In this document: positions 35,515-48,825 of the stretch, one piece after another | Numbering within the stretch: position 1 is the first letter of the stretch | How the letters are laid out: each line of letters starts with the position of its first letter | Source of the DNA: Paracoccus saliphilus | GTDB taxonomy: Bacteria; Pseudomonadota; Alphaproteobacteria; Rhodobacterales; Rhodobacteraceae | DNA: 64,000 bases | Assembly (NCBI RefSeq): GCF_028553805.1 | Contig: NZ_CP067140.1 | Location: 1,984,001-2,048,000 of the forward strand | Direction: 5' to 3' | The notes under the pieces: model-generated | Seen by the model: only the letters and a program-made list of their open reading frames with translations | What the model was told of the DNA's origin: nothing | Database searches by the model: none | Translations under genes and position numbers: made by a program

Positions 35515-35823
35515 ATGGGTTATGTTCGCATTCTTGTAACCATTGTTACCGCGGCTGTCCTGACGGTCGGTGTCGTCGACGCAACTTTCCTGCAGCATTC
35601 GTTCACTGCGGCGGCGGCGGACGCGGAAACGGTAAACTTCGATGTCGGCGATACGCTTCCTCCCGACCAGATCCACATCGTCACCAAGCCCGGACTTTAC
35701 GGTCTCGGCCCCGAACCGGCCAACAGCAAATATGCGGTCGCGCACGGCAAGCTGATCCGGATCGATCCTAAAACCGGACAGGTCCTCTCGATCCTGCGCA
35801 GCCAGACCGAGATCCTGGACTGA
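35515..35823 (+). CDS. small secreted protein with RcnB-like C-terminal pattern (1)
   Basis: A 102-residue protein with an N-terminal hydrophobic segment (residues about 5-22), probably a signal peptide or anchor. The C-terminal half reads VTKPGLYGLG, then YAVAHGKLIRIDPKTGQVL, then SILRSQTEILD. This pattern recurs in the next gene and resembles the C-terminal end of RcnB-like periplasmic proteins, where a Y.R...G..L.I....G.I...I segment is typical. Function is unknown. The ribosome site is weak (AAGGA about 12 bases before ATG 35515). Confidence 0.65.
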   Translation: MGYVRILVTIVTAAVLTVGVVDATFLQHSFTAAAADAETVNFDVGDTLPPDQIHIVTKPGLYGLGPEPANSKYAVAHGKLIRIDPKTGQVLSILRSQTEILD

Positions 35824-35934
35824 CTCATCACTGCCGCAACCCTGCCCGGTAGAAATTCATCTGATCGCACAACCGTGACGGAACCATGTCCCCCGAGGGC
35901 AGTTGAGCAGGCAAAAGCATCAAAGGAGCCTGAC

Positions 35935-36381
35935 GTGAAACCACAGCACCGACTGGTCGCGGCAACAGCGGGTCTGTTGCTGGCGATATCACCCATTTCC
36001 GCTTTTGCGGAGCCGCCCGCCCATGCCAAGGCCAACAAGGCCAGCCGGTCGGTCGACAAGGGTAAGCAGCATGTCATCGTGAAACGTGACAATGCCGAAC
36101 GCCGGATCATCGTGGCAGGAAACTGCCCTCCCGGCCTCGCCAAGAAAAGCCCGGCCTGCGTACCTCCGGGACAAGCGAAAAAGCATGGCATCCATCTTGG
36201 CGTCGGTGACATCATCAATTGGAATGACGTGCATGTCGTGACCCGCCCGGGCCGCTACGGTCTCAGCATGCCGCCCGACGGCAATCGCTATGCCATCGTG
36301 GATGGGCAATTGGTGCGCGTGAACGAGGATAGCGGCAAGATCCTGTCGATCCTGCGCCTGGTGGACGCCATTCTCGACTGA
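35935..36381 (+). CDS. small secreted protein with RcnB-like C-terminal pattern (2)
   Basis: A 148-residue exported protein starting at GTG 35935, seven bases after AAAGGAG. The signal peptide ends near ISAFA (about residue 24). A basic middle segment holds NCPPGLAKKSPACVPPGQAKK, with two cysteines. The end, VTRPGRYGLSMPPDGNRYA to SILRLVDAILD, matches the preceding gene at most fixed positions, so the two look like diverged paralogues. An extracytoplasmic role, perhaps metal-related, is a guess from RcnB-like similarity. Confidence 0.72.
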   Translation: MKPQHRLVAATAGLLLAISPISAFAEPPAHAKANKASRSVDKGKQHVIVKRDNAERRIIVAGNCPPGLAKKSPACVPPGQAKKHGIHLGVGDIINWNDVHVVTRPGRYGLSMPPDGNRYAIVDGQLVRVNEDSGKILSILRLVDAILD

Positions 36382-38427: not shown

Positions 38428-39465
38428 TCACGGCTGCACCATCGCCGCATTCCATTCCGCCAGAAGGCCGGCCCTGCGCAGCTGGTCGTCATAGACCAGC
38501 AGTCCTGTATCCAGCCTGATCGGCCGCAGATGGATCGACGGTTTCGGTCCGGTTTCGGGGATCAGGGCGACATTGGCACTGGCCGCGATCTTGCGCTGTG
38601 CCGGTTCCGACAGCAGGTAGGACAAAAGATCGGTCGCATCCTGGGAATTGGGCGCGTTCGTGGGCACCAATGCCGAACGAACGATGGCCAGCGTATAATC
38701 CTCGAGCGCGACCCGGACGATATCGGGATCTTCGGGTGCGAACCGCGCCGCGTAGCTGGCCACGACATTGTAGGCGATGGCGACGCGGCCCGCGCGCAAT
38801 TCGTCGATCATCTCGCCGGAACAGCAGAAAAGACGCGCATTCAGGCGTCCCATGACCTCGGCAAGGCGCCAGAAGCCTTCGGATTGGCGGCTGTCCTGCG
38901 AGATCAGGAAATAGCCCACACCGGATTCCTGGGGATCGTAGCTGGCGATACGTCCGTCGAACCGCTCGGGATGTTCGCGAAGCATCGCAATCAGATCGCG
39001 GCGCGTCCGCGGCACCGGCAGATCGCCCAGCCCCTGCCGCGACGCCAATGTCACGACCGGCTCAAGCCCCACGCCATAAAGCTGATCCCGCCAGCGCGCC
39101 CAGCTTGGCAAGGCCCCGGTTTCAGGCGAGATCGAAGCGGCGAACCCGTCATTGGCCAGCTTCATCTGCAGATCCATGGCCGAGGACATGACAAGGTCGA
39201 AAGGCACGCGCTCTTCATGAATGGCGCGAAACACCTCGACACTGGCGGCCTGCTCATACCGAATCCGCTGGTTCGGATGGCTGGCGATGTAGTCTTCGAG
39301 CACCGGAGCGATGGAGTCCAGATCGGTCGTCGACAGCACAGAGATCTCGCGCCCGCCTTCGGGGCCGAAATAACGCTCTTCCTCGACCTCGTATGCGGCG
39401 GCGGATGCCGCCAGCGTCAGGAAGAGGAAGGCGGCTCGGATAGCGGCAAGAACAGGATCGCGCAT
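38428..39465 (-). CDS. periplasmic solute-binding protein linked to TctDE
   Basis: A 345-residue exported protein (signal peptide to about residue 24) of the iron/solute-binding ABC family, with an STTDLDSIAPVLEDY start. Proteins of this kind often lie next to TctDE-type two-component systems and may help the kinase sense its ligand. No ABC permease is present, so a sensory role is more likely than transport. It begins at ATG 39465 after GAGAGGGG, inside the kinase gene, so the two reading frames share 49 bases. It is the last gene of the minus-strand tctD-tctE unit. Confidence 0.82.
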   Translation of the reverse strand: MRDPVLAAIRAAFLFLTLAASAAAYEVEEERYFGPEGGREISVLSTTDLDSIAPVLEDYIASHPNQRIRYEQAASVEVFRAIHEERVPFDLVMSSAMDLQMKLANDGFAASISPETGALPSWARWRDQLYGVGLEPVVTLASRQGLGDLPVPRTRRDLIAMLREHPERFDGRIASYDPQESGVGYFLISQDSRQSEGFWRLAEVMGRLNARLFCCSGEMIDELRAGRVAIAYNVVASYAARFAPEDPDIVRVALEDYTLAIVRSALVPTNAPNSQDATDLLSYLLSEPAQRKIAASANVALIPETGPKPSIHLRPIRLDTGLLVYDDQLRRAGLLAEWNAAMVQP

Positions 39466-40823
39466 GTGCCCCTCTCTGCTCGGGATTTCAGGGTGAAGCG
39501 GCCACCATGCGCGGCCGCGACTTCGTTCACGATGGTCAGGCCGAGGCCCGAGCCGACAACATCGCCGACATTGCTGCCCCGGCGGAAACGGGCGGTCAGA
39601 TCGTCATCTCCGGGACCGAGCCCCCTGCCCTCGTCCAACACCGTCAATTCGGCCATGCCGTCGCGGCGGGTCAGGCGGACCAGCACCTCACCCTCGTCCC
39701 GCGAATATTTCAGCGCGTTGTCGAGGATATTGCGCAGCGCAACCTCGATCATCCGTTCGTCCCCCGAAACCTGGCAGGCTGCATCCAGCCCCTCTGCGCG
39801 CATGTCGATCTCGCGCATCTCGGCGATGGGCCGGACGGATTGCAATACAGCCGCAGACAGAGCCGCGAAATCGACGGGCGCGGCAGAGAACTGGTCGCTG
39901 CGATAAAGCACCGTCGCATGATCGAGGATCTGGTTGGCCGAACGGCTGCTTTCCCCGATCGCGCGGACCATCCGGCGCAGCCGTTGTCGGGTCGCCTCGT
40001 CCGAAGTTTCCGCCAGCGCGATCTCGGCCTCGGTGCGGACCAGTGAAAGCGGCGTCCGGATGCGATGAGCAGCCTCGAAGATGAAGGTTTCGGCCAGCGC
40101 GAGCGTGCCGCGCAGCCGGGCAATGAAGCCGTTCAGGGCACCGACCAGCGGCAGCAATTCCTGCGGAGTCGGATGCCTGACCGGACGCAGATCATGCGGG
40201 CCACGCCGCGCGACCGCCTTCGCCAGACGATCGACGGGCCGGATCACCGCCCGCGCCGCCCAGAGCGCGAGCGGCAGGGCCAGGACGAAAAACCCCAGCC
40301 CTATCCATGCCGAGCTGCGGGCAGTCTCGCGCGCAATGGCCGCCTGGCCATAGCGGGTCTGACCCAGCACCACGGTGATCTCTTCGATCCTCGTATCCAC
40401 CAGAACGCGGCGCGAGATCGCGGCCAGGCGCAACCGGTTGCCGCGATAATCCGCATCCCAGAACACCGGGGACAGATCGCCGGGCACCTCGGGAGCCGGG
40501 GGCAGATTGCCGTAACCGGTAATCAGCCGTTCCTCCGTGGACAGGCTGTAGAATACCCGCTCGTCCCCCATCGCGCCCAGCATCGAGAATGTCGCATAGG
40601 GCAGATCGAGCTCCAGCCCTTCATCCACCGGACGCAACCCGTCTCCGATCGAGATGACGGCCGCGCCCAGAACAGCGTCCTGACTGGCACGGGAGGCGCG
40701 CTCTGCCGCGAATCGAACCGCGAAGAACAGCGCAAGGACAAGTAACGCGGACAGGGCGACGAATTGCCAGATCAGCCGCCTGCGCAAGGAAAAACGGGCC
40801 GGTCGTGCCGCGCCGGGCCTCAT
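39417..40823 (-). CDS. tctE: sensor histidine kinase, TctE-like
   Basis: A 468-residue membrane kinase with helices near residues 18-35 and about 165-188 bounding a periplasmic sensor domain. The phosphorylated histidine is in AAHRIRTPLSLVRTE, the N box in NILDNALKYS, and the G boxes in LDEGRGLGPG and GSGLGLTIVNEVAAAHGG. It overlaps the tctD stop by four bases. With TctD it should control the divergent tctCBA transporter, as in tricarboxylate systems of other bacteria. The ligand is not known here. Confidence 0.9.
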   Translation of the reverse strand: MRPGAARPARFSLRRRLIWQFVALSALLVLALFFAVRFAAERASRASQDAVLGAAVISIGDGLRPVDEGLELDLPYATFSMLGAMGDERVFYSLSTEERLITGYGNLPPAPEVPGDLSPVFWDADYRGNRLRLAAISRRVLVDTRIEEITVVLGQTRYGQAAIARETARSSAWIGLGFFVLALPLALWAARAVIRPVDRLAKAVARRGPHDLRPVRHPTPQELLPLVGALNGFIARLRGTLALAETFIFEAAHRIRTPLSLVRTEAEIALAETSDEATRQRLRRMVRAIGESSRSANQILDHATVLYRSDQFSAAPVDFAALSAAVLQSVRPIAEMREIDMRAEGLDAACQVSGDERMIEVALRNILDNALKYSRDEGEVLVRLTRRDGMAELTVLDEGRGLGPGDDDLTARFRRGSNVGDVVGSGLGLTIVNEVAAAHGGRFTLKSRAERGTCAILFLPLSEPPSSS

Positions 40824-41488
40824 TCCGGTATCAGCCGGTAGCCGACACCCCGAAGCGTTTCCAGCCTTGCGCCGGACCCCTCCAGCTTGCGACGCAGGCG
40901 GGCAATATAAACCTCGATGGCGTTATCGCTGACTTCTTCGTCAAAGGAGAACAGGCGATCGATCAGATGCGCCTTGGAATAGGTCTGACCGGGGCGCGAG
41001 AGCAGGATTTCAAGCAGCCGCAATTCCCGTGCGCGCAGTTCCCGCACCTCCTCGCCGATGCTCAGCGTGGCGGCCAGCGCATCGAAGACAAAACCCGCGT
41101 AATGCTGTCGACTATCTGCAACCCCGGCATGGCGGCGACGCAAAACCGCCCGGCAACGGGCCTGAAGTTCGGCAAAATCGAAGGGCTTGGTGATATAATC
41201 ATCCGCACCCTGATCCAGCGTGTTCACGCGATCGCTGACCGAAGCACTGGCCGTCATCATGATGACAGGGGTATCGTGCCGGGCCATCCTCTCACGCCGA
41301 AGAAAATCTCGTCCGTCGCCATCAGGAAGAGAAATATCTAGCAATATCAGATCATAAGGGGCTGATTTTAGAAACTCCCCGGCCTCGGACAAACTTGCTG
41401 CCCGGTCGACGCCATGCCCATCCATCGCCAGCCGCGAGACCACGGCAGCCGCCAGTTCATCACTGTCTTCAACCAACAGAAATCGCAT
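40820..41488 (-). CDS. tctD: response regulator, TctD-like (OmpR family)
   Basis: A 222-residue regulator with a receiver domain and a winged-helix DNA-binding domain. The phospho-acceptor aspartate lies in LILLDISLPDGDG and the conserved lysine in YITKPFDFAEL. The C-terminal domain has the OmpR pattern ELRLLEILLSRPG and YIARLRRKLEG. It faces the tctCBA genes across a 112-base gap holding an inverted repeat, so it likely activates them. Confidence 0.92.
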   Translation of the reverse strand: MRFLLVEDSDELAAAVVSRLAMDGHGVDRAASLSEAGEFLKSAPYDLILLDISLPDGDGRDFLRRERMARHDTPVIMMTASASVSDRVNTLDQGADDYITKPFDFAELQARCRAVLRRRHAGVADSRQHYAGFVFDALAATLSIGEEVRELRARELRLLEILLSRPGQTYSKAHLIDRLFSFDEEVSDNAIEVYIARLRRKLEGSGARLETLRGVGYRLIPE

Positions 41489-41511
41489 TCGCTCAACTTT
41501 AAGGCAGCACG

Positions 41512-41574
41512 TGACAGGTTCATGTCAGCTTTTCATCAAATTGTAGTTATCGCAATCCCGCGATCCGTCGCGGG
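41512..41574 (+). promoter_or_regulatory. inverted repeat and leader hairpin upstream of tctC
   Basis: TGACA (41512-41516) and TGTCA (41523-41527) form an inverted repeat with a 6-base spacer, a possible TctD site. Farther on, CCCGCG (41557-41562) and CGCGGG (41569-41574) form a 6-bp hairpin in the likely leader, 27 bases before the tctC start. Confidence 0.35.
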
Positions 41575-41600
41575 GGAACCAAATCCTATGGGAGGATATC

Positions 41601-42560
41601 ATGAAGAACTGGACCCGTGCGGCCGCTGCCGCAATTTTGACGAGTATCGCTGTGCCTGCGGCCGCCGAGGAATGCATTGCCCCCGCCAATCCGGGCGGTG
41701 GATGGGATTTCACCTGCCGTCAGATCGGCCGGATCATGACCGAACTGGGTGTCGTGCCTGACCTGGTGCAGGTCACCAACCTTGCCGGTGCCGGCGGAGG
41801 CGTGGCCTATTCGCAGGTCGTGAATGAACGCAATAACGATCCGGATGTCTTCATCGCAGCGTCATCTGCGACCACCACGCGCCTCGCCCAGAACGCCTTT
41901 GGCGGCGCAACGCCCGACCAGGTCCGTTGGGTCGGCACCATCGGTGGCGATCCCGGCGTGATCGTGGTGGCAGCCGACAGCGAATATGAAAGCCTGACCG
42001 ACCTGGTCGAGGCGATCAAGGCCGATCCCTCTTCCGTGGCCTTCGCGGGCGGTTCGGCCGTGGGCGGTTTCGATCACCTGAAAGTCCTGATGACGCTGGA
42101 CAAGGCCGGCTTCACGGATATCCGCAAGGTCAAGTATATCGGTGTCGATGGCGGCGCGGATGCCATCACCCAGACCGTGGGCGGTTTCGCGCAGGCGATG
42201 ACCGGCGATCTGTCGGAAATCACCGGCTTCATCAAGTCCGGCGATGTGCGGCCCATCGCAGTGCTGTCGGAAGAGCGGGTGGAAGGTTTCGAGGACGTGC
42301 CGACCGCCAAGGAGCAGGGCATCGATATCGTCGCAATGAACTGGCGCGGCGTCTATGTGCCCAAGGATATCAGCGACGAGGACTACCAGAAATGGGTCGA
42401 TGCGCTGAAGCAGGTCGGCGAAAGCGAGGAATGGCAGAAGGTCATGACCGAGAACGGCCTTGCGCCCTACAGCATCTATGGCGATGAATTCGAGACCTTC
42501 GTGGCTGACAATATCGCCCAGATCCAGAAGATCTCGAAAGATATCGGGTTGCTGCAATGA
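41601..42560 (+). CDS. tctC: tripartite tricarboxylate transporter binding protein TctC
   Basis: A 319-residue periplasmic binding protein with a signal peptide (to about residue 22, SIAVPAAAEE). The Tct/Bug family ligand motif APANPGGGWDFTCR follows at once. The family binds carboxylates, and the ligand of this one is unknown. ATG 41601 follows GGGAGG. It opens a plus-strand operon with tctB, tctA, atuA-like, DUF4387 and AbrB-like genes. Confidence 0.94.
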   Translation: MKNWTRAAAAAILTSIAVPAAAEECIAPANPGGGWDFTCRQIGRIMTELGVVPDLVQVTNLAGAGGGVAYSQVVNERNNDPDVFIAASSATTTRLAQNAFGGATPDQVRWVGTIGGDPGVIVVAADSEYESLTDLVEAIKADPSSVAFAGGSAVGGFDHLKVLMTLDKAGFTDIRKVKYIGVDGGADAITQTVGGFAQAMTGDLSEITGFIKSGDVRPIAVLSEERVEGFEDVPTAKEQGIDIVAMNWRGVYVPKDISDEDYQKWVDALKQVGESEEWQKVMTENGLAPYSIYGDEFETFVADNIAQIQKISKDIGLLQ

Positions 42561-43000
42561 TCCGTGGCGACCGTATCTTCGGAGCGGTCATGATCGTGCT
42601 GGCGTTGGGGTATATCCTCACCGCCAGTCGTATCGGGACCAGCTTCATGTCCGACCCGGTCGGGCCGCGCGTCTTTCCCTACATGGTCGCGGGGGTGATC
42701 ATCCTGTGCTCGGTGAGCATGATCCTGCGCCCCGATCCCGACGCTGAATGGCCCGCCGGACCGATGTTGCTGCAACTGGGCATCGCCTTTGCCGCGTTGA
42801 TCGGATACGCTTTTGCAATCAAGCCATTGGGTTTCATCCTGCCAACGGTGATCGTCGCAGGTATCCTGAGCTGGCAGATCGGCGGCCGCCCCATGCGCGC
42901 TGCGATTTCCGGCATCGGGCTGGGCATTGGGCTCTTCGTGCTCTTCCGGGTCATACTTGGCCTGGGGCTCAGGGGCCTACCCGCAGGCTGGGGGTTCTGA
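42557..43000 (+). CDS. tctB: tripartite tricarboxylate transporter small membrane subunit TctB
   Basis: A 147-residue membrane protein with four hydrophobic segments and the SDPVGPRVFPYMVAGVI stretch typical of the family. TctB is the small membrane subunit that works with TctA. It overlaps tctC by four bases and lies three bases before tctA. Confidence 0.92.
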   Translation: MIRGDRIFGAVMIVLALGYILTASRIGTSFMSDPVGPRVFPYMVAGVIILCSVSMILRPDPDAEWPAGPMLLQLGIAFAALIGYAFAIKPLGFILPTVIVAGILSWQIGGRPMRAAISGIGLGIGLFVLFRVILGLGLRGLPAGWGF

Positions 43001-43003
43001 ACC

Positions 43004-44527
43004 ATGGATATTCTGAACAATCTCGCGATGGGCTTTTCCATCGCCGCCTCTCCCTACACGCTGCTCTTGGCGGTGATCGGCTGTTTCGTCGGCACGATCA
43101 TCGGCGCCCTGCCCGGGCTTGGTCCGGCAAACGGCGTGGCACTGCTGATCCCGATCTCGTTCTCGATGGGTCTGGATGCGATCCCGGCCCTCGTGCTGCT
43201 GACCTCGGTCTATTACGGGGCGATGTATGGCGGGCGGATCAGCTCCATCCTGCTGAACATTCCCGGCGACGAACCGGCGATGATGACGACGCTGGACGGC
43301 TATCCCATGGCCAAGCAGGGCAAGGCCGGCGAGGCGCTGGTCGTATCGGGCGTGGCCTCTTTCGTTGGTGCATTCGTCGCCACGATCGGGCTGATGATCT
43401 TTGCCCCCTACCTGGCCCGCGTCGCCTTCAAGTTCGGCCCGGCGGAATATTTCGCGCTTTACATGCTGGCCTTCTGTACGCTTGGCGGGATCGGATCGAA
43501 CAACCAGGCCAAGGCTGCGATGGCTGCCGCAATCGGTCTTGGCATTGCCATGATCGGGCTGGACAAGACCACCGGCATGCCGCGCTTTACCTTTGGTGAA
43601 TTGCATCTCCAGGACGGGGTGGATTTCCTTGTCGCCATCGTCGGGCTGTTCGCCGTCGCCGAAGTGTTCTTCTTCATCGAGACCCACGGCAAGAACAGCG
43701 CCATCGGCGTGAAGCTGGGAAAGATCCTCGTGCCATGGCGGATGCTGAAACAGACCTCGGGCGCGATGATGCGCGGCACCGGGATCGGCTTCATCGCCGG
43801 GGTGCTGCCGGGAGCGGGTGCGTCACTGGGTTCATTCCTCGCCTATACGGCCGAGAAATCCGCAGCGCGCGACAAGTCACAATTCGGCAAGGGCGATCCC
43901 CGCGGTGTCGCCGCGCCGGAGGCTGGCAACAACTCTGCCGCCGGTGGTGCGCTGGTGCCGATGCTGACGCTTGGTGTGCCGGGATCGGGCACGACCGCAG
44001 TGCTGCTGGCGCTGCTGCTGACGCTCAACATCACGCCGGGGCCGCTGCTGTTCACCGAACGGCCCGAGGTCGTCTGGTCGCTGATCGCGGCGCTGCTGAT
44101 CGCCAATATCGTGCTGCTCTTGATGAACGTACCGATGGTCAAGGTCTTCGTGCATATCCTGTCGGTCCCGGCATGGATCCTGCTGCCGGGCGTGACCATG
44201 GTCGCCTTCGTGGGCATCTACTCGCTGACCGGTTCCAGCTTCGACATGCTGATGATGGTTGGTTTCGGGGTGTTGGGCTATATCATGCGCAAGCTTGAAA
44301 TCCCGACGGTTCCGGTGATCCTCGGCATCCTGCTGGGCAACGCGATGGAGGACAACCTGCGCCGCGCCATGGTGCTGTCGGACGGGGACTGGACCTTCCT
44401 GTTCAGCTCGCCTATCGCAGTCGGGCTGTGGATCGCGGCGGTTCTCGGCTTCATTGCGCCGATCTTCCTGCGGCAATTCCTGAAGAAGCCGCCGCTGCCG
44501 GAAACCGAACCCAAGGTAGGAGACTGA
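43004..44527 (+). CDS. tctA: tripartite tricarboxylate transporter large membrane subunit TctA
   Basis: The 507-residue main transport subunit has about twelve membrane helices. Family motifs are GALPGLGPANGVALLIPISF near residue 32, YYGAMYGGRISSILLNIPGD, and a repeated form, GVLPGAGASLGSFLAY, in the second half. Transport is expected to be driven by an ion gradient. It is followed one base later by the AtuA-like gene, so the transporter and the downstream enzymes should be made together. Confidence 0.95.
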   Translation: MDILNNLAMGFSIAASPYTLLLAVIGCFVGTIIGALPGLGPANGVALLIPISFSMGLDAIPALVLLTSVYYGAMYGGRISSILLNIPGDEPAMMTTLDGYPMAKQGKAGEALVVSGVASFVGAFVATIGLMIFAPYLARVAFKFGPAEYFALYMLAFCTLGGIGSNNQAKAAMAAAIGLGIAMIGLDKTTGMPRFTFGELHLQDGVDFLVAIVGLFAVAEVFFFIETHGKNSAIGVKLGKILVPWRMLKQTSGAMMRGTGIGFIAGVLPGAGASLGSFLAYTAEKSAARDKSQFGKGDPRGVAAPEAGNNSAAGGALVPMLTLGVPGSGTTAVLLALLLTLNITPGPLLFTERPEVVWSLIAALLIANIVLLLMNVPMVKVFVHILSVPAWILLPGVTMVAFVGIYSLTGSSFDMLMMVGFGVLGYIMRKLEIPTVPVILGILLGNAMEDNLRRAMVLSDGDWTFLFSSPIAVGLWIAAVLGFIAPIFLRQFLKKPPLPETEPKVGD

Positions 44528-44528
44528 C

Positions 44529-45890
44529 ATGCCGACTCGCGTTCTGGTGCCTTCGGGCGTTCTTGGTCTCGGCTTCGACCGCAAGGCGCTGACACGCGGG
44601 GTGGCCATGAAGCCCGACATCATCTGCATCGACGGAGGGTCCACGGATAGTGGGCCCTTCAGTCTTGGCGCCGGGCAGTCGAAATATTCCCGCGCCGCGA
44701 CCAAATCCGAATGGCGCATCCTGATGCAGGCCCGCGCCGAGGCCGGCGTGCCGCTGGTCATCGGCACCGCAGGCACCTGCGGCACCGACAGCACGGTGGA
44801 CTGGATGCACGACATCACCACCGAACTGGCCGAAGAGTTGGGGCAAAGCCTGAAAATCGCACGGCTTTATTCCGGCCAGCCGGCAGGGCGGATCGCCCGG
44901 GCGCTTGAGGCCGGGGATGTCACCCCGCTCACCCCGGCCCCCGAGATCCGGCTGGACGACCTGACCAATATCGTCGCCCTGGCCGGGGCCGAGCAGATAC
45001 AGGCCGCGCTCGCCACCGGCGCCGATATCGTCATCGCGGGCCGCACCACCGATACCGCGACCATTGCCGCCCTGCCGCTCTCGCGCGGGGATGCCGCCGG
45101 GGGTGCTTGGCACGGCGCCAAGATCGCCGAATGCGGGGCGTTGTGCTCGACCAACCCGACCTCTGGCGTGATCATGGTGGATTTCGACACGGATGGTTTC
45201 ACGGTCGAACCCATGGCCGAGAATGCCGCCTGTACCCCGCATTCGGTCTCGGCCCATATGCTCTACGAGAATTCCGATCCGTTCCAACTTTATGAACCGG
45301 GCGGGTATCTGAACGTGACGAGCGCGCGCTATACCGCGCTGGACCATCGCCGCGTGCGGGTGGAGGGCTCGGAATGGGTGCCCGGCCCCTATACGGTCAA
45401 GCTGGAGGGCGCGCGCATCGCCGGATATCAGACCACGATCCTCGCCATCCTGCGTGACGCCCATTACGTGAAAAACGCCCAGGCATGGGTCGAGCGGCTG
45501 ACCACCTACCTGACCGGCGAGATCGAGAGCCGGATGGGGCTGACGCAAGGCGATTACGGCCTCGAATTCCGGCTGATCGGGGTGAACGGGGCGCTTGGAC
45601 AGCTCGAGAACCGTGCCGGCGATCCGGTCGAGATCGGGGTGCTGGGCATCATCACAGCGACCTCTCAACCCATCGCCGCCGAGATCGGCAAGCTGATCAA
45701 TCCCTTCGTGTTGCATTACCCGCTGACCGATAGCGAGGAATTGCCGACCTTCGCATTCCCCTATTCCCCCGCGACGACCGACCGGGGCCCATTGTATGAG
45801 TTCGCGCTGAACCATGTCATGCGGCTGAAAGACCCGATGGAGGCGTTCCGGATCGAACTCAGCCAGATCGGCGCGGAGGTTCCGGCATGA
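44529..45890 (+). CDS. AtuA-like (DUF1446) protein
   Basis: The 453-residue protein belongs to the acyclic terpene utilisation AtuA family. Seen are IDGGSTDSGPFSLGAGQSKY near residue 35, GTAGTCGTDSTVDWM near residue 80, IVIAGRTTDTATIAAL, and ECGALCSTNPT. The biochemical role of AtuA proteins is not firmly known; they occur with citronellol/geraniol genes in Pseudomonas, and as pairs with DUF4387 proteins beside Tct transporters. Here it overlaps the DUF4387 gene by four bases. No terpene-degradation genes are in the window, so its substrate is open. Confidence 0.88.
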   Translation: MPTRVLVPSGVLGLGFDRKALTRGVAMKPDIICIDGGSTDSGPFSLGAGQSKYSRAATKSEWRILMQARAEAGVPLVIGTAGTCGTDSTVDWMHDITTELAEELGQSLKIARLYSGQPAGRIARALEAGDVTPLTPAPEIRLDDLTNIVALAGAEQIQAALATGADIVIAGRTTDTATIAALPLSRGDAAGGAWHGAKIAECGALCSTNPTSGVIMVDFDTDGFTVEPMAENAACTPHSVSAHMLYENSDPFQLYEPGGYLNVTSARYTALDHRRVRVEGSEWVPGPYTVKLEGARIAGYQTTILAILRDAHYVKNAQAWVERLTTYLTGEIESRMGLTQGDYGLEFRLIGVNGALGQLENRAGDPVEIGVLGIITATSQPIAAEIGKLINPFVLHYPLTDSEELPTFAFPYSPATTDRGPLYEFALNHVMRLKDPMEAFRIELSQIGAEVPA

Positions 45891-46186
45891 GGCTTGGCGA
45901 TCTCGTCCTGAAACTGCGTTCCAAGAATGCCGGCCCGTTCTGGGTCACCATCGACATCTTCTGCGACACGCCCGAGATCTTTCGGCAGGTCCGCTACAAC
46001 CTGCCCACCCGCACGGTCGCAGAATTGTATCAGGTGCCCGAGCAACTGCTGAAACGCTTCGACATCGAGGACCTGCGGGTCGTCAAGTTCAGCATTCCGC
46101 GTCCGGTGGTGCAAGGTTCCGCCGCCGATCGCGACATGCACGGCGCCCAATATGCCGCGTTGCTGGAAGAATATGAGTTCGACTAA
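45887..46186 (+). CDS. DUF4387 family protein
   Basis: A 99-residue protein with the family start KLRSKNAGPFWVTIDIF and a C-terminal AADRDMHGAQYAALLEE. DUF4387 genes commonly follow AtuA-type genes and probably encode a partner subunit. Its ATGA start overlaps the AtuA-like gene, and the AbrB-like gene begins inside its last codons (14-base overlap). No signal peptide or membrane helix. Confidence 0.85.
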   Translation: MRLGDLVLKLRSKNAGPFWVTIDIFCDTPEIFRQVRYNLPTRTVAELYQVPEQLLKRFDIEDLRVVKFSIPRPVVQGSAADRDMHGAQYAALLEEYEFD

Positions 46187-47207
46187 ACGCCGTATCCTGA
46201 CCTTTACACTCGCCGCCATTGGCGCAGGAATCTTCCTGCTCTTCGGCCTGCCCCTGCCCATGCTTCTGGGTCCCATGCTGGCCTGCCTGATCGCGGCGCT
46301 AGCTGGTGCGCCCCTGATGGGAGCGGGCAGTTTCGCCGTCTTCATGCGGACCTTCCTGGGCGTCGCGGTGGGCGCCTCGATTACCCCCCAGGTCCTGGGT
46401 CAGCTGCCGGGCTTCGCCGCCTCGCTGGCCTTCGTGCCGCTGTTCATCGCGATCATCGCGTTGATCGGTTATCCGATGTTCCGCCGGGTCTTCGGTTTCG
46501 ATCACCCGACAGCGTGGTATGCGGCTATGCCCGGCGGGCTGCAGGACATGCTGGTCTTTGGTGAAGAGGCGGGAGGCGATGTTCGTGCGCTGTCCCTGAT
46601 CCATGCCACGCGGGTCCTCGCCCTCGTTACCTTCGCGCCCATGATCATGCATGCCTATTGGGGCGTGGACCTGTCGCAACCGCCCGGCGCGCCGATCAGC
46701 TCCACCGCCCCTGCCGAGATCCTGCTGATGATCGCCTCGGGCTTCTTCGGCTGGAAGATCGCGGAAAGGCTCGGGCTGTTCGGCGCCTCGATCCTCGGTC
46801 CGATGATCCTGACCGCGATCCTGTCGCTCTCCGGCATCATCCAGCATCGCCCCCCGGCCGAGATCCTGCAGGCGGCGCAATTCTTCATCGGCATCACGGT
46901 TGGCGTGAAATATGTCGGTATCACCGGGCGGGAATTGCGTATCGACGTGTCGGCGGGGCTGTTTCACGCGATCATACTCGCATTCATCAGCCTGATCTTC
47001 TTCGAGATCATCGTGCATCTGCAACTTGCCCCGGCGCTGGATGCCGTCCTGGCCTTTCTGCCCGGCGGTCAGGCAGAGATGGTCGTGATCGCCATCATCG
47101 CTGGCGCCGACCTGGCCTATGTCGTCAGCCACCACCTGTTGCGGATCATCATCGTGATCATGCTGGCCCCCGTCGTCGCCAGGATCATGAGTCGCTCTCG
47201 ACGCTAG
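46173..47207 (+). CDS. AbrB/AmoA-like membrane protein (PF05145 type)
   Basis: A 344-residue polytopic membrane protein with two similar halves. Each half starts with a GASITPQVLGQLP- or KYVGITG-type segment, and internal AWYAAMPGGLQDML and AFLPGGQAEM motifs recur about 190 residues apart. Such proteins are labelled AbrB family or ammonia monooxygenase in databases, although they look like transporters. ATG 46173 follows TGGAAG; the frame is open to 46152. As the last gene of the tct operon it may be an efflux or second uptake route for the same compound. Confidence 0.85.
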   Translation: MSSTKRRILTFTLAAIGAGIFLLFGLPLPMLLGPMLACLIAALAGAPLMGAGSFAVFMRTFLGVAVGASITPQVLGQLPGFAASLAFVPLFIAIIALIGYPMFRRVFGFDHPTAWYAAMPGGLQDMLVFGEEAGGDVRALSLIHATRVLALVTFAPMIMHAYWGVDLSQPPGAPISSTAPAEILLMIASGFFGWKIAERLGLFGASILGPMILTAILSLSGIIQHRPPAEILQAAQFFIGITVGVKYVGITGRELRIDVSAGLFHAIILAFISLIFFEIIVHLQLAPALDAVLAFLPGGQAEMVVIAIIAGADLAYVVSHHLLRIIIVIMLAPVVARIMSRSRR

Positions 47208-47821: not shown

Positions 47822-48117
47822 GGCGCTCCCGAAGTTCCTCAAAATTACTGACACAGTCACGTTCAGGAATGGCTATCGTTTGCATATTGGGCGACCGGCA
47901 CTCTGCCGCCGCGACCAGGAAAACATGCAATCGGTTGTTTCAAATAAATAAACCCGCGCCCCAACGGTGATTCCTTCCTGCTGCGCAATGAAAAGCGGCA
48001 AAATCATGCTCAGATTTCCGCAGCAGGGGAACCGAATGACCGCGCAACTCATTGTCTCATTGCAATGCGTCGAACGAGTTCACCGGCGCAACGCAACTGG
48101 TAAAAAGGAGACATGTG
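47822..48117. other. intergenic stretch, nothing recognised
   Basis: The 296 bases between gpt and the PRC-barrel gene have an A+T-rich patch near 47935-47955. I see no gene, clear terminator or RNA. The AAAAAGGAG ribosome site of the next gene is at its right end. Confidence 0.4.
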
Positions 48118-48825
48118 ATGCGTAAGCTTTTTATGACGACTGCTATTGTGCTGCCCTTTGCCTTGGCACCTGCCTTCGCGCAGGAGACGACCACCGAGGA
48201 ACCTGCAATGGACCCGGCAGCGGAGGCTCAAACCGATCCGGCAGCCGATGCTGCCGCGGCAGAGGCCGAAGCAGCCGCAGCCGCAGAGGAAGCGCTGAAA
48301 GCCGAGGTCGCGGAAAGCGGCAAGGTCGCGCAAGAGCAGGCCGCGAACGAGCTTCGTCTGGACTGGGTCACCGATGCGACAGTAACTGCGCCTGACGGCA
48401 CCTCGATCGGCAGCATCAACGACCTGATCCTGGATGGAGAATCCGGTAGCATGATTGCTGCTGTGATCGGTGTCGGCGGTTTCCTTGGCATTGGCGAAAA
48501 GCAGATCGCCGTTCCCTGGGAGCAGTTGACGGTCAACGCCGATGCGCAAGAGATCACGAGCGATCTGACCAAGGAAGAAGCCGATGTCGCCCCGGCATAT
48601 GTGTTCCGTGAACGTGCCGAGGCTCCGGGTGCTGCAACGGATGATGCGATGGCACCTGCGGATGACGCGATGGCACCGGCTGACGATGCTGCCGCACCTG
48701 CGGATGACGCAATGGCACCGGCTGACGACGCTGCCGCACCCGCCGATGACGCAATGGCACCGGCTGACGATGCTGCCCCTGCTGAAGGCGAGGCCATGGA
48801 AGGCGAAGAGCCGGCCAGCAACTGA
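48118..48825 (+). CDS. exported PRC-barrel domain protein with Ala/Pro/Asp repeat tail
   Basis: A 235-residue secreted protein with a clear signal peptide (cut after APAFA, residue 21). An Ala/Glu-rich coiled-like stretch follows at about residues 22-78, then a PRC-barrel domain at about 80-170 (LRLDWVTDATVTAPDGTSIG to VPWEQLTVNADAQE). The tail consists of repeats of the APADDAMAPADDAA type (about residues 180-222). PRC-barrel proteins in the periplasm of Alphaproteobacteria have no settled role. ATG 48118 follows AAAGGAG at seven bases. A terminator lies just past the stop. Confidence 0.85.
   Translation: MRKLFMTTAIVLPFALAPAFAQETTTEEPAMDPAAEAQTDPAADAAAAEAEAAAAAEEALKAEVAESGKVAQEQAANELRLDWVTDATVTAPDGTSIGSINDLILDGESGSMIAAVIGVGGFLGIGEKQIAVPWEQLTVNADAQEITSDLTKEEADVAPAYVFRERAEAPGAATDDAMAPADDAMAPADDAAAPADDAMAPADDAAAPADDAMAPADDAAPAEGEAMEGEEPASN
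48640..48782 (+). repeat. in-frame tandem repeat of the PRC-barrel protein tail
   Basis: Units of about 15 and 30 bases encoding APADDA-M or -A blocks are repeated several times; GCACCGGCTGACGA and GATGACGCAATGGC recur closely. Such arrays can change length by slippage, so tail length may vary between strains. Confidence 0.7.

Follow-up and report, generated by a model that had tools for sequence, protein, structure and literature searches.

A Tct-linked AtuA-like/DUF4387 pair in Paracoccus saliphilus as a candidate CmlAB-type lyase in a probable sense-import-cleave locus

In the 64,000-nucleotide stretch of Paracoccus saliphilus analysed here (contig NZ_CP067140.1, positions 1,984,001 to 2,048,000; the window), a locus of nine genes at 38428..47207 joins a two-component system to a tripartite tricarboxylate transporter (Tct) operon, which also contains an AtuA-like gene, a DUF4387 gene and an AbrB-type gene. 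We regard the whole locus, with a probability of roughly two in three, as a self-contained sense-import-cleave module for a hydroxy-polycarboxylate. As we infer it, a periplasmic solute-binding protein (SBP) and a TctE-like kinase would sense the acid outside the cell, a TctD-like regulator would bind the tandem repeat at 41512-41531 and turn on the operon, and TctCBA would take up the acid. The AtuA-like/DUF4387 pair, a predicted two-subunit lyase of the CmlAB superfamily, would then cut it by a retro-aldol step without coenzyme A (CoA). The products would be a 2-oxo acid and a two-carbon acetyl compound, either acetate or acetyl phosphate, and housekeeping metabolism could use both. Acetate would pass to acetyl-CoA synthetase, which the genome encodes (1023.9 bits against a cut-off of 724.95), and the 2-oxo acid to central metabolism. 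The likeliest substrates would be 2-substituted malates (R = CH3 in citramalate, CH2OH in itatartarate, CH2COO- in citrate). The operon has no CoA ligase, hydratase or dehydrogenase gene, and this absence would make sense if the pair were a lyase that works without CoA and feeds its products into central metabolism.

The AtuA-like protein (44529..45890, plus strand; 453 aa) matches only PF07287, at residues 77-331, and the adjacent DUF4387 gene (45887..46186, plus strand) encodes the predicted small subunit with a PF14330 match; each is the sole match of its family in the 4.62-Mb genome. The nearest solved enzyme of the pair is the citramalate lyase CmlAB (PDB 9erq and 9evf), which was crystallised with pyruvate, and 9evf holds ADP according to its title; this ADP may be read as ATP activating the carboxylate as an acyl phosphate. 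Like CmlAB, the window has a PF07287 large and a PF14330 small subunit in adjacent genes, a common fold across the entire large subunit, and the invariant polar residues of both subunits. In the structure comparison of the large subunit, the matches besides 9evf are mainly to residues 297-424 (ferredoxin-like). The match of both subunits to CmlAB argues for the suggestion of a preliminary description of this DNA, made from the letters alone, that the pair may itself be the enzyme. The CmlAB large chain is more than 90% identical to a protein of the enterobacterial glutamate-fermentation cluster. A protein cluster of the E. coli-type large subunit (P0241) represents 5597 member sequences, indicating that the pair is common in enterobacterial data.

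Gene calls and family profiles bore out the nine genes of that description, with their coordinates, families and tight coupling. On the plus strand, the operon runs through TctC, the solute-binding protein of the transporter (41601..42560; PF03401, 97.2 bits), the small membrane subunit TctB (42557..43000; PF07331, 68.1 bits), the large membrane subunit TctA (43004..44527; PF01970, 501.2 bits), the lyase pair and the AbrB-type membrane protein (46173..47207; PF05145/TIGR03082). TctC and TctB overlap by 4 bp, gaps of 3 bp and 1 bp separate TctB-TctA and TctA-AtuA, and AtuA and DUF4387 overlap by 4 bp. For AbrB, the start at 46173 fits better than 46152, and the overlap with DUF4387 is then about 14 bp. 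The TctA, TctB and TctC families in one operon make this a tripartite tricarboxylate transporter, and its TctA is 1 of 11 TctA matches genome-wide. Beyond a 112-bp intergenic stretch, the minus-strand arm contains an OmpR-type response regulator (40820..41488), the TctE-like sensor histidine kinase (39417..40823) and the SBP (38428..39465; PF13531, 48.8 bits), with overlaps of 4 bp between regulator and kinase and 49 bp between kinase and SBP. TctD is the nearest NCBIfam model of the regulator, whose 183.7 bits lie below the equivalog cut-off of 337. The 2CSK_N, HAMP and HATPase_c domains of the kinase score above their cut-offs, and HisKA (25.1 bits) is slightly under its 26.9.

The conservation of this gene order was counted in the best 80 of 335 confirmed stretches from a search with the AtuA-like protein. 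A gene was taken as present when a called gene was more than 40% identical to that of the window; several loci are cut by contig ends, and the codon-model caller used for neighbour genes still missed some genes. The loci are also related to each other, and the counts are not independent events. It turned out that the order does recur, as the preliminary description had asked to be checked: DUF4387 follows AtuA in 78 of the 80 loci (tblastn), and L047 and L077, the remaining two, have a contig end at the AtuA match or close to it. A window-like TctA is present in 61 loci, TctC in 54, TctB in 54, the kinase in 48, the SBP in 47, the response regulator in 45 and AbrB in 25. AtuA-DUF4387 spacing ranges from -68 to 84 bp in 71 loci, most commonly -8 or -4. 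The kinase and SBP genes overlap in 46 of 47 relatives measured; AbrB and DUF4387 overlap in 18 of the 23 loci with both called on one strand, and are more distant in 5. This recurrence of DUF4387 and its neighbours indicates that the arrangement is not due to chance. Several variants are also found. For example, in three loci (L054, L059 and L063) AtuA-DUF4387-TctC-TctA-AbrB is accompanied by a PF00180 dehydrogenase and a GntR-type regulator, two (L040 and L041) have a divergent TctC-TctB-TctA-AbrB arm, portions of which occur in L043, L047 and L048, and a Shinella plasmid carries GntR-AtuA-DUF4387-TctCBA-Ldh-isomerase-cupin. The AbrB protein may be an accessory transporter.

To place the enzyme among its relatives, a tree of 85 large subunits including that of the window was made, with AtuA rows from HMM searches; a quick tree was also made, and the row set A1 comprised 37 hand-picked rows. 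The other 84 rows come from 15 of the 80 loci (picked to include Tct-less ones), 18 of 19 plasmid stretches and 51 survey loci, all of them near DUF4387 because they were selected so. For the survey, DUF4387 had 71 distinct matches, not counting the P. saliphilus genome, and 54 stretches were fetched; three (L223, L225 and L226) had no full AtuA row and were dropped, and no Tct gene was called at those three. The clade that includes the window has 27 rows (100/100); a different clade of 9 (100/98) contains the E. coli-type enzyme and the near-identical relatives of the solved enzyme. The survey loci were selected on DUF4387, irrespective of transporter genes, and among them TctA lies within 6 kb at 9 of 10 window-clade loci versus 0 of 41 others; in all 84 loci, a picked set, the counts are 22 of 26 versus 0 of 58. 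TctC alone is near two loci outside the window clade (L089 and L094). Clade and Tct linkage together thus indicate that the window enzyme is a separate Tct-fed branch and not an ortholog of citramalate lyase.

Such pairs also occur in other settings. On the conjugative Klebsiella plasmid pHNLC3 (L084:7977-16036), resistance genes lie a few kb upstream of a CmlAB-type pair. The genes after the pair encode two aldehyde dehydrogenases, two further dehydrogenases and a fumarate hydratase; an AtuA match was found in 12 Klebsiella plasmid records. On a Neorhizobium galegae plasmid (L092:2641-9189), a single run of genes encodes ferredoxin, agmatinase, cytochrome P450, coniferyl-alcohol dehydrogenase, a CmlAB-type pair and a fumarate hydratase, and the same lyase clade may here be supplied by another route. 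Besides, plasmid pPAN3 of Paracoccus pantotrophus (L099) has a different AtuA/DUF4387 pair (37% identity) of another clade, near a D-2-hydroxyacid dehydrogenase.

The putative operator is the direct repeat TGACAGGTT-CA-TGTCAGCTT (41512..41531, plus strand), a probable response-regulator site between the regulator gene and tctC; this fits the binding of tandem repeats by OmpR-family regulators. The window contains a single, mismatch-free copy of the motif TGWCAGSTT-N2-TGWCAGSTT. At three or fewer mismatches, 0.06 occurrences were expected, and 6 of 100 shuffled versions contained one. In the whole genome this site is the only exact match, with one further site at one mismatch and four at two; the reversed-pattern control gave no matches. 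Upstream of tctC, 41 of 48 kinase-bearing loci have the motif with no more than one mismatch, versus 0 of 6 kinase-less ones; allowing up to three, the counts are 45 of 48 versus 1 of 6. As background, 3 of 2346 tiles reach three mismatches. Because the motif was read from those loci, the 41 of 48 describes it more than it tests it, and its absence in kinase-less loci is the more independent point. The preliminary description had also proposed a complete sense-import-convert system with possible export; the shared operator strengthens regulated import and conversion, and export by AbrB found no support in either direction. In Paracoccus methylarcula (L003:4292-4959), gene calling splits the response regulator in two, and the kinase and operator are retained. 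Scans for sigma-70 promoters and terminators gave results at chance level.

DUF4387 could also be connected with a wider group of proteins. A profile comparison indicates that it is homologous to PF23544, the C-terminal ferredoxin-like domain of one-chain AtuA (95.2% probability, P 2.5e-8, 75 columns), as 30 column-shuffled controls reached at most 1.8% and 19 unrelated families at most 0.5%. We examined 31 PF23544 loci (30 returned of 46 genomes with matches, plus L097), and all had an AtuA-type large domain, in the same open frame in 15 and in another frame in 16, indicating that one-gene and two-gene forms exist; L139 and L150, among the 16, are ambiguous, with a PF23544 frame itself of more than 600 codons. 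PF23544 occurs in 46 of the 190 genomes of this class, and in L131-L160 it is also a stand-alone small gene beside an AtuA-type gene. The residue alignment included 13 of the 15 one-frame and 10 of the 16 two-frame loci. G171, R172, D175, E201, C202, E247, P251 and K291 are identical in 85 of 85 DUF4387-partnered, 13 of 13 fused and 10 of 10 PF23544-partnered proteins. Characteristic of the DUF4387-partnered form are D35, S38, K198, H243 and E293 (83 to 85 of 85), positions at which most or all proteins of the other two forms carry another residue. With the core residues shared by all three forms, a common retro-aldol chemistry is plausible. We tentatively extend this, in a form that as a whole is rather improbable, to one C-C lyase superfamily that unites PF07287 proteins partnered by DUF4387 with those that have the ferredoxin-like domain of AtuA. 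In it, the DUF4387 branch would use ATP to convert a free carboxylate to an acyl phosphate and turn a beta-hydroxy acid into acetyl phosphate and a 2-oxo acid without CoA or acyl carrier protein, and the window clade would be a distinct branch, supplied by Tct, whose substrate is a 2-substituted malate from the environment but not citramalate.

Several points weigh against the sense-import-cleave proposal. The large subunit is about 35% identical to the enterobacterial citramalate-lyase-type subunits and lies in a separate clade, so the reaction may have changed. Of the 9 CmlA-clade loci, 6 have a fumarase gene within 6 kb, compared with none of the 75 others, indicating that the substrate supply differs. 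The name "CmlAB" is the PDB depositors' label, and literature searches found no paper on CmlAB: none is among the matches listed for 'citramalate lyase' since 2018, and a search for DUF4387 found nothing. As to regulation, the related loci that supplied the motif are also those in which it was counted, and at least two mismatches are present in 7 of the 48 kinase-bearing loci (more than three in 3 of them).

For the substrate, some members of the window clade or sister lineages carry D-2-hydroxyacid, Ldh-type or PF00180 dehydrogenases for malate- or tartrate-like acids, one of these enzymes being a tartrate dehydrogenase over its cut-off, and these neighbours point to 2-substituted malates or close kin. 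The pair could be a plain citramalate lyase, turning imported (R)- or (S)-citramalate into pyruvate and an acetyl product. We find this possible, yet on the unlikely side: the nearest solved enzyme carries that name and its pyruvate, the residues are conserved, and PF00180 dehydrogenases, which would suit a 3-methylmalate isomer, are coupled in some relatives, but the clade of the window is different and fully supported. What's more, no fumarase or mesaconase gene lies within 6 kb in the window clade, and no fumarase or MAL match is among the called genes of the 80 loci. Another 2-substituted malate, such as itatartarate, cleaved to hydroxypyruvate and an acetyl product, is an unlikely choice. 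It would fit the Shinella plasmid (63.5% identical), whose downstream genes include an Ldh-type dehydrogenase and a hydroxypyruvate-isomerase-like protein, and the D-2-hydroxyacid dehydrogenases near sister-lineage loci L087, L089, L222 and L227; that of L087, the one scanned, resembles phosphoglycerate dehydrogenase and glyoxylate/hydroxypyruvate reductases. However, all these family scores are under curated cut-offs, and the window operon contains none of those genes. Itatartarate is a known fungal product (PMC11626831). We doubt even more that the same fold serves another chemistry, as an ATP-using ligase, hydrolase or isomerase of a carboxylate. The ADP in 9evf and the very mixed neighbours of other clades (ABC importers, hydantoinases, CoA transferases) would suit it, but the core residues are common to the citramalate lyase clade and one-chain AtuA, which passages of PMC4847356 call an acetate lyase. 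A terpenoid-acid degradation system, suggested by the AtuA name, the PF07287 match and the preliminary description, is highly improbable and was rejected, as the operon has no carboxylase, dehydrogenase or CoA ligase and the window protein is far closer to CmlAB than to one-chain AtuA (H50; 26.5% over 53% of the query).

Other routes to the substrate were tried. The best solved relative of the SBP is 3c9h (E 7.5e-49), with the 7f6e group named next, and these were rejected as a guide since their ligands are not established; the solved relatives of TctC were likewise too distant for naming a ligand. For the AbrB protein, the sequence search gave no significant solved relative. Elsewhere in the window, a 42-bp unit is repeated three times (48652-48777; 94% match) within the ORF 48052-48825, whose protein has runs of DDAMAPADDAAAPA. 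The adjacent small ORFs 35515-35823 and 35875-36381 have similar ends (KTGQVLSILR and DSGKILSILR) and are probably tandem paralogs.

In conclusion, the sense-import-cleave proposal offers a function that can be tested for DUF1446/AtuA-like and DUF4387, two families that are widely annotated as unknowns. It connects both with a solved enzyme and with terpene AtuA, and directs attention to the citramalate-cleaving step that is missing in enterobacterial glutamate fermentation. The Tct-linked branch, which has one operator and lacks accessory enzymes, is small enough for tests of ligand, regulator and reaction alike. It resembles the citrate importers TctCBA-TctDE and BctCBA-BctDE in the adjacent TctD/TctE-type two-component control of a tripartite importer, and differs from them in a separate SBP gene overlapping the kinase gene and in a transporter operon that also holds lyase and AbrB genes. 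In Bordetella, citrate-bound BctC itself signals to BctE, as passages of PMC5812351 have it; here the SBP is the presumed sensor partner of the kinase. Besides its sequence divergence and clade, the window pair differs from CmlAB in having a Tct importer and a sensor of its own as neighbours, whereas CmlAB is linked to methylaspartate and fumarase genes. One-chain AtuA has a homologous large domain, a C-terminal ferredoxin-like domain homologous to DUF4387 and the core R, D, E, C, E and K in common with the window protein, but it is a single chain of about 600 aa with both PF07287 and PF23544, acts on a CoA ester, differs at D35, S38, K198, H243 and E293, and in a Rhodococcus record has biotin-carboxylase neighbours, unlike the window.

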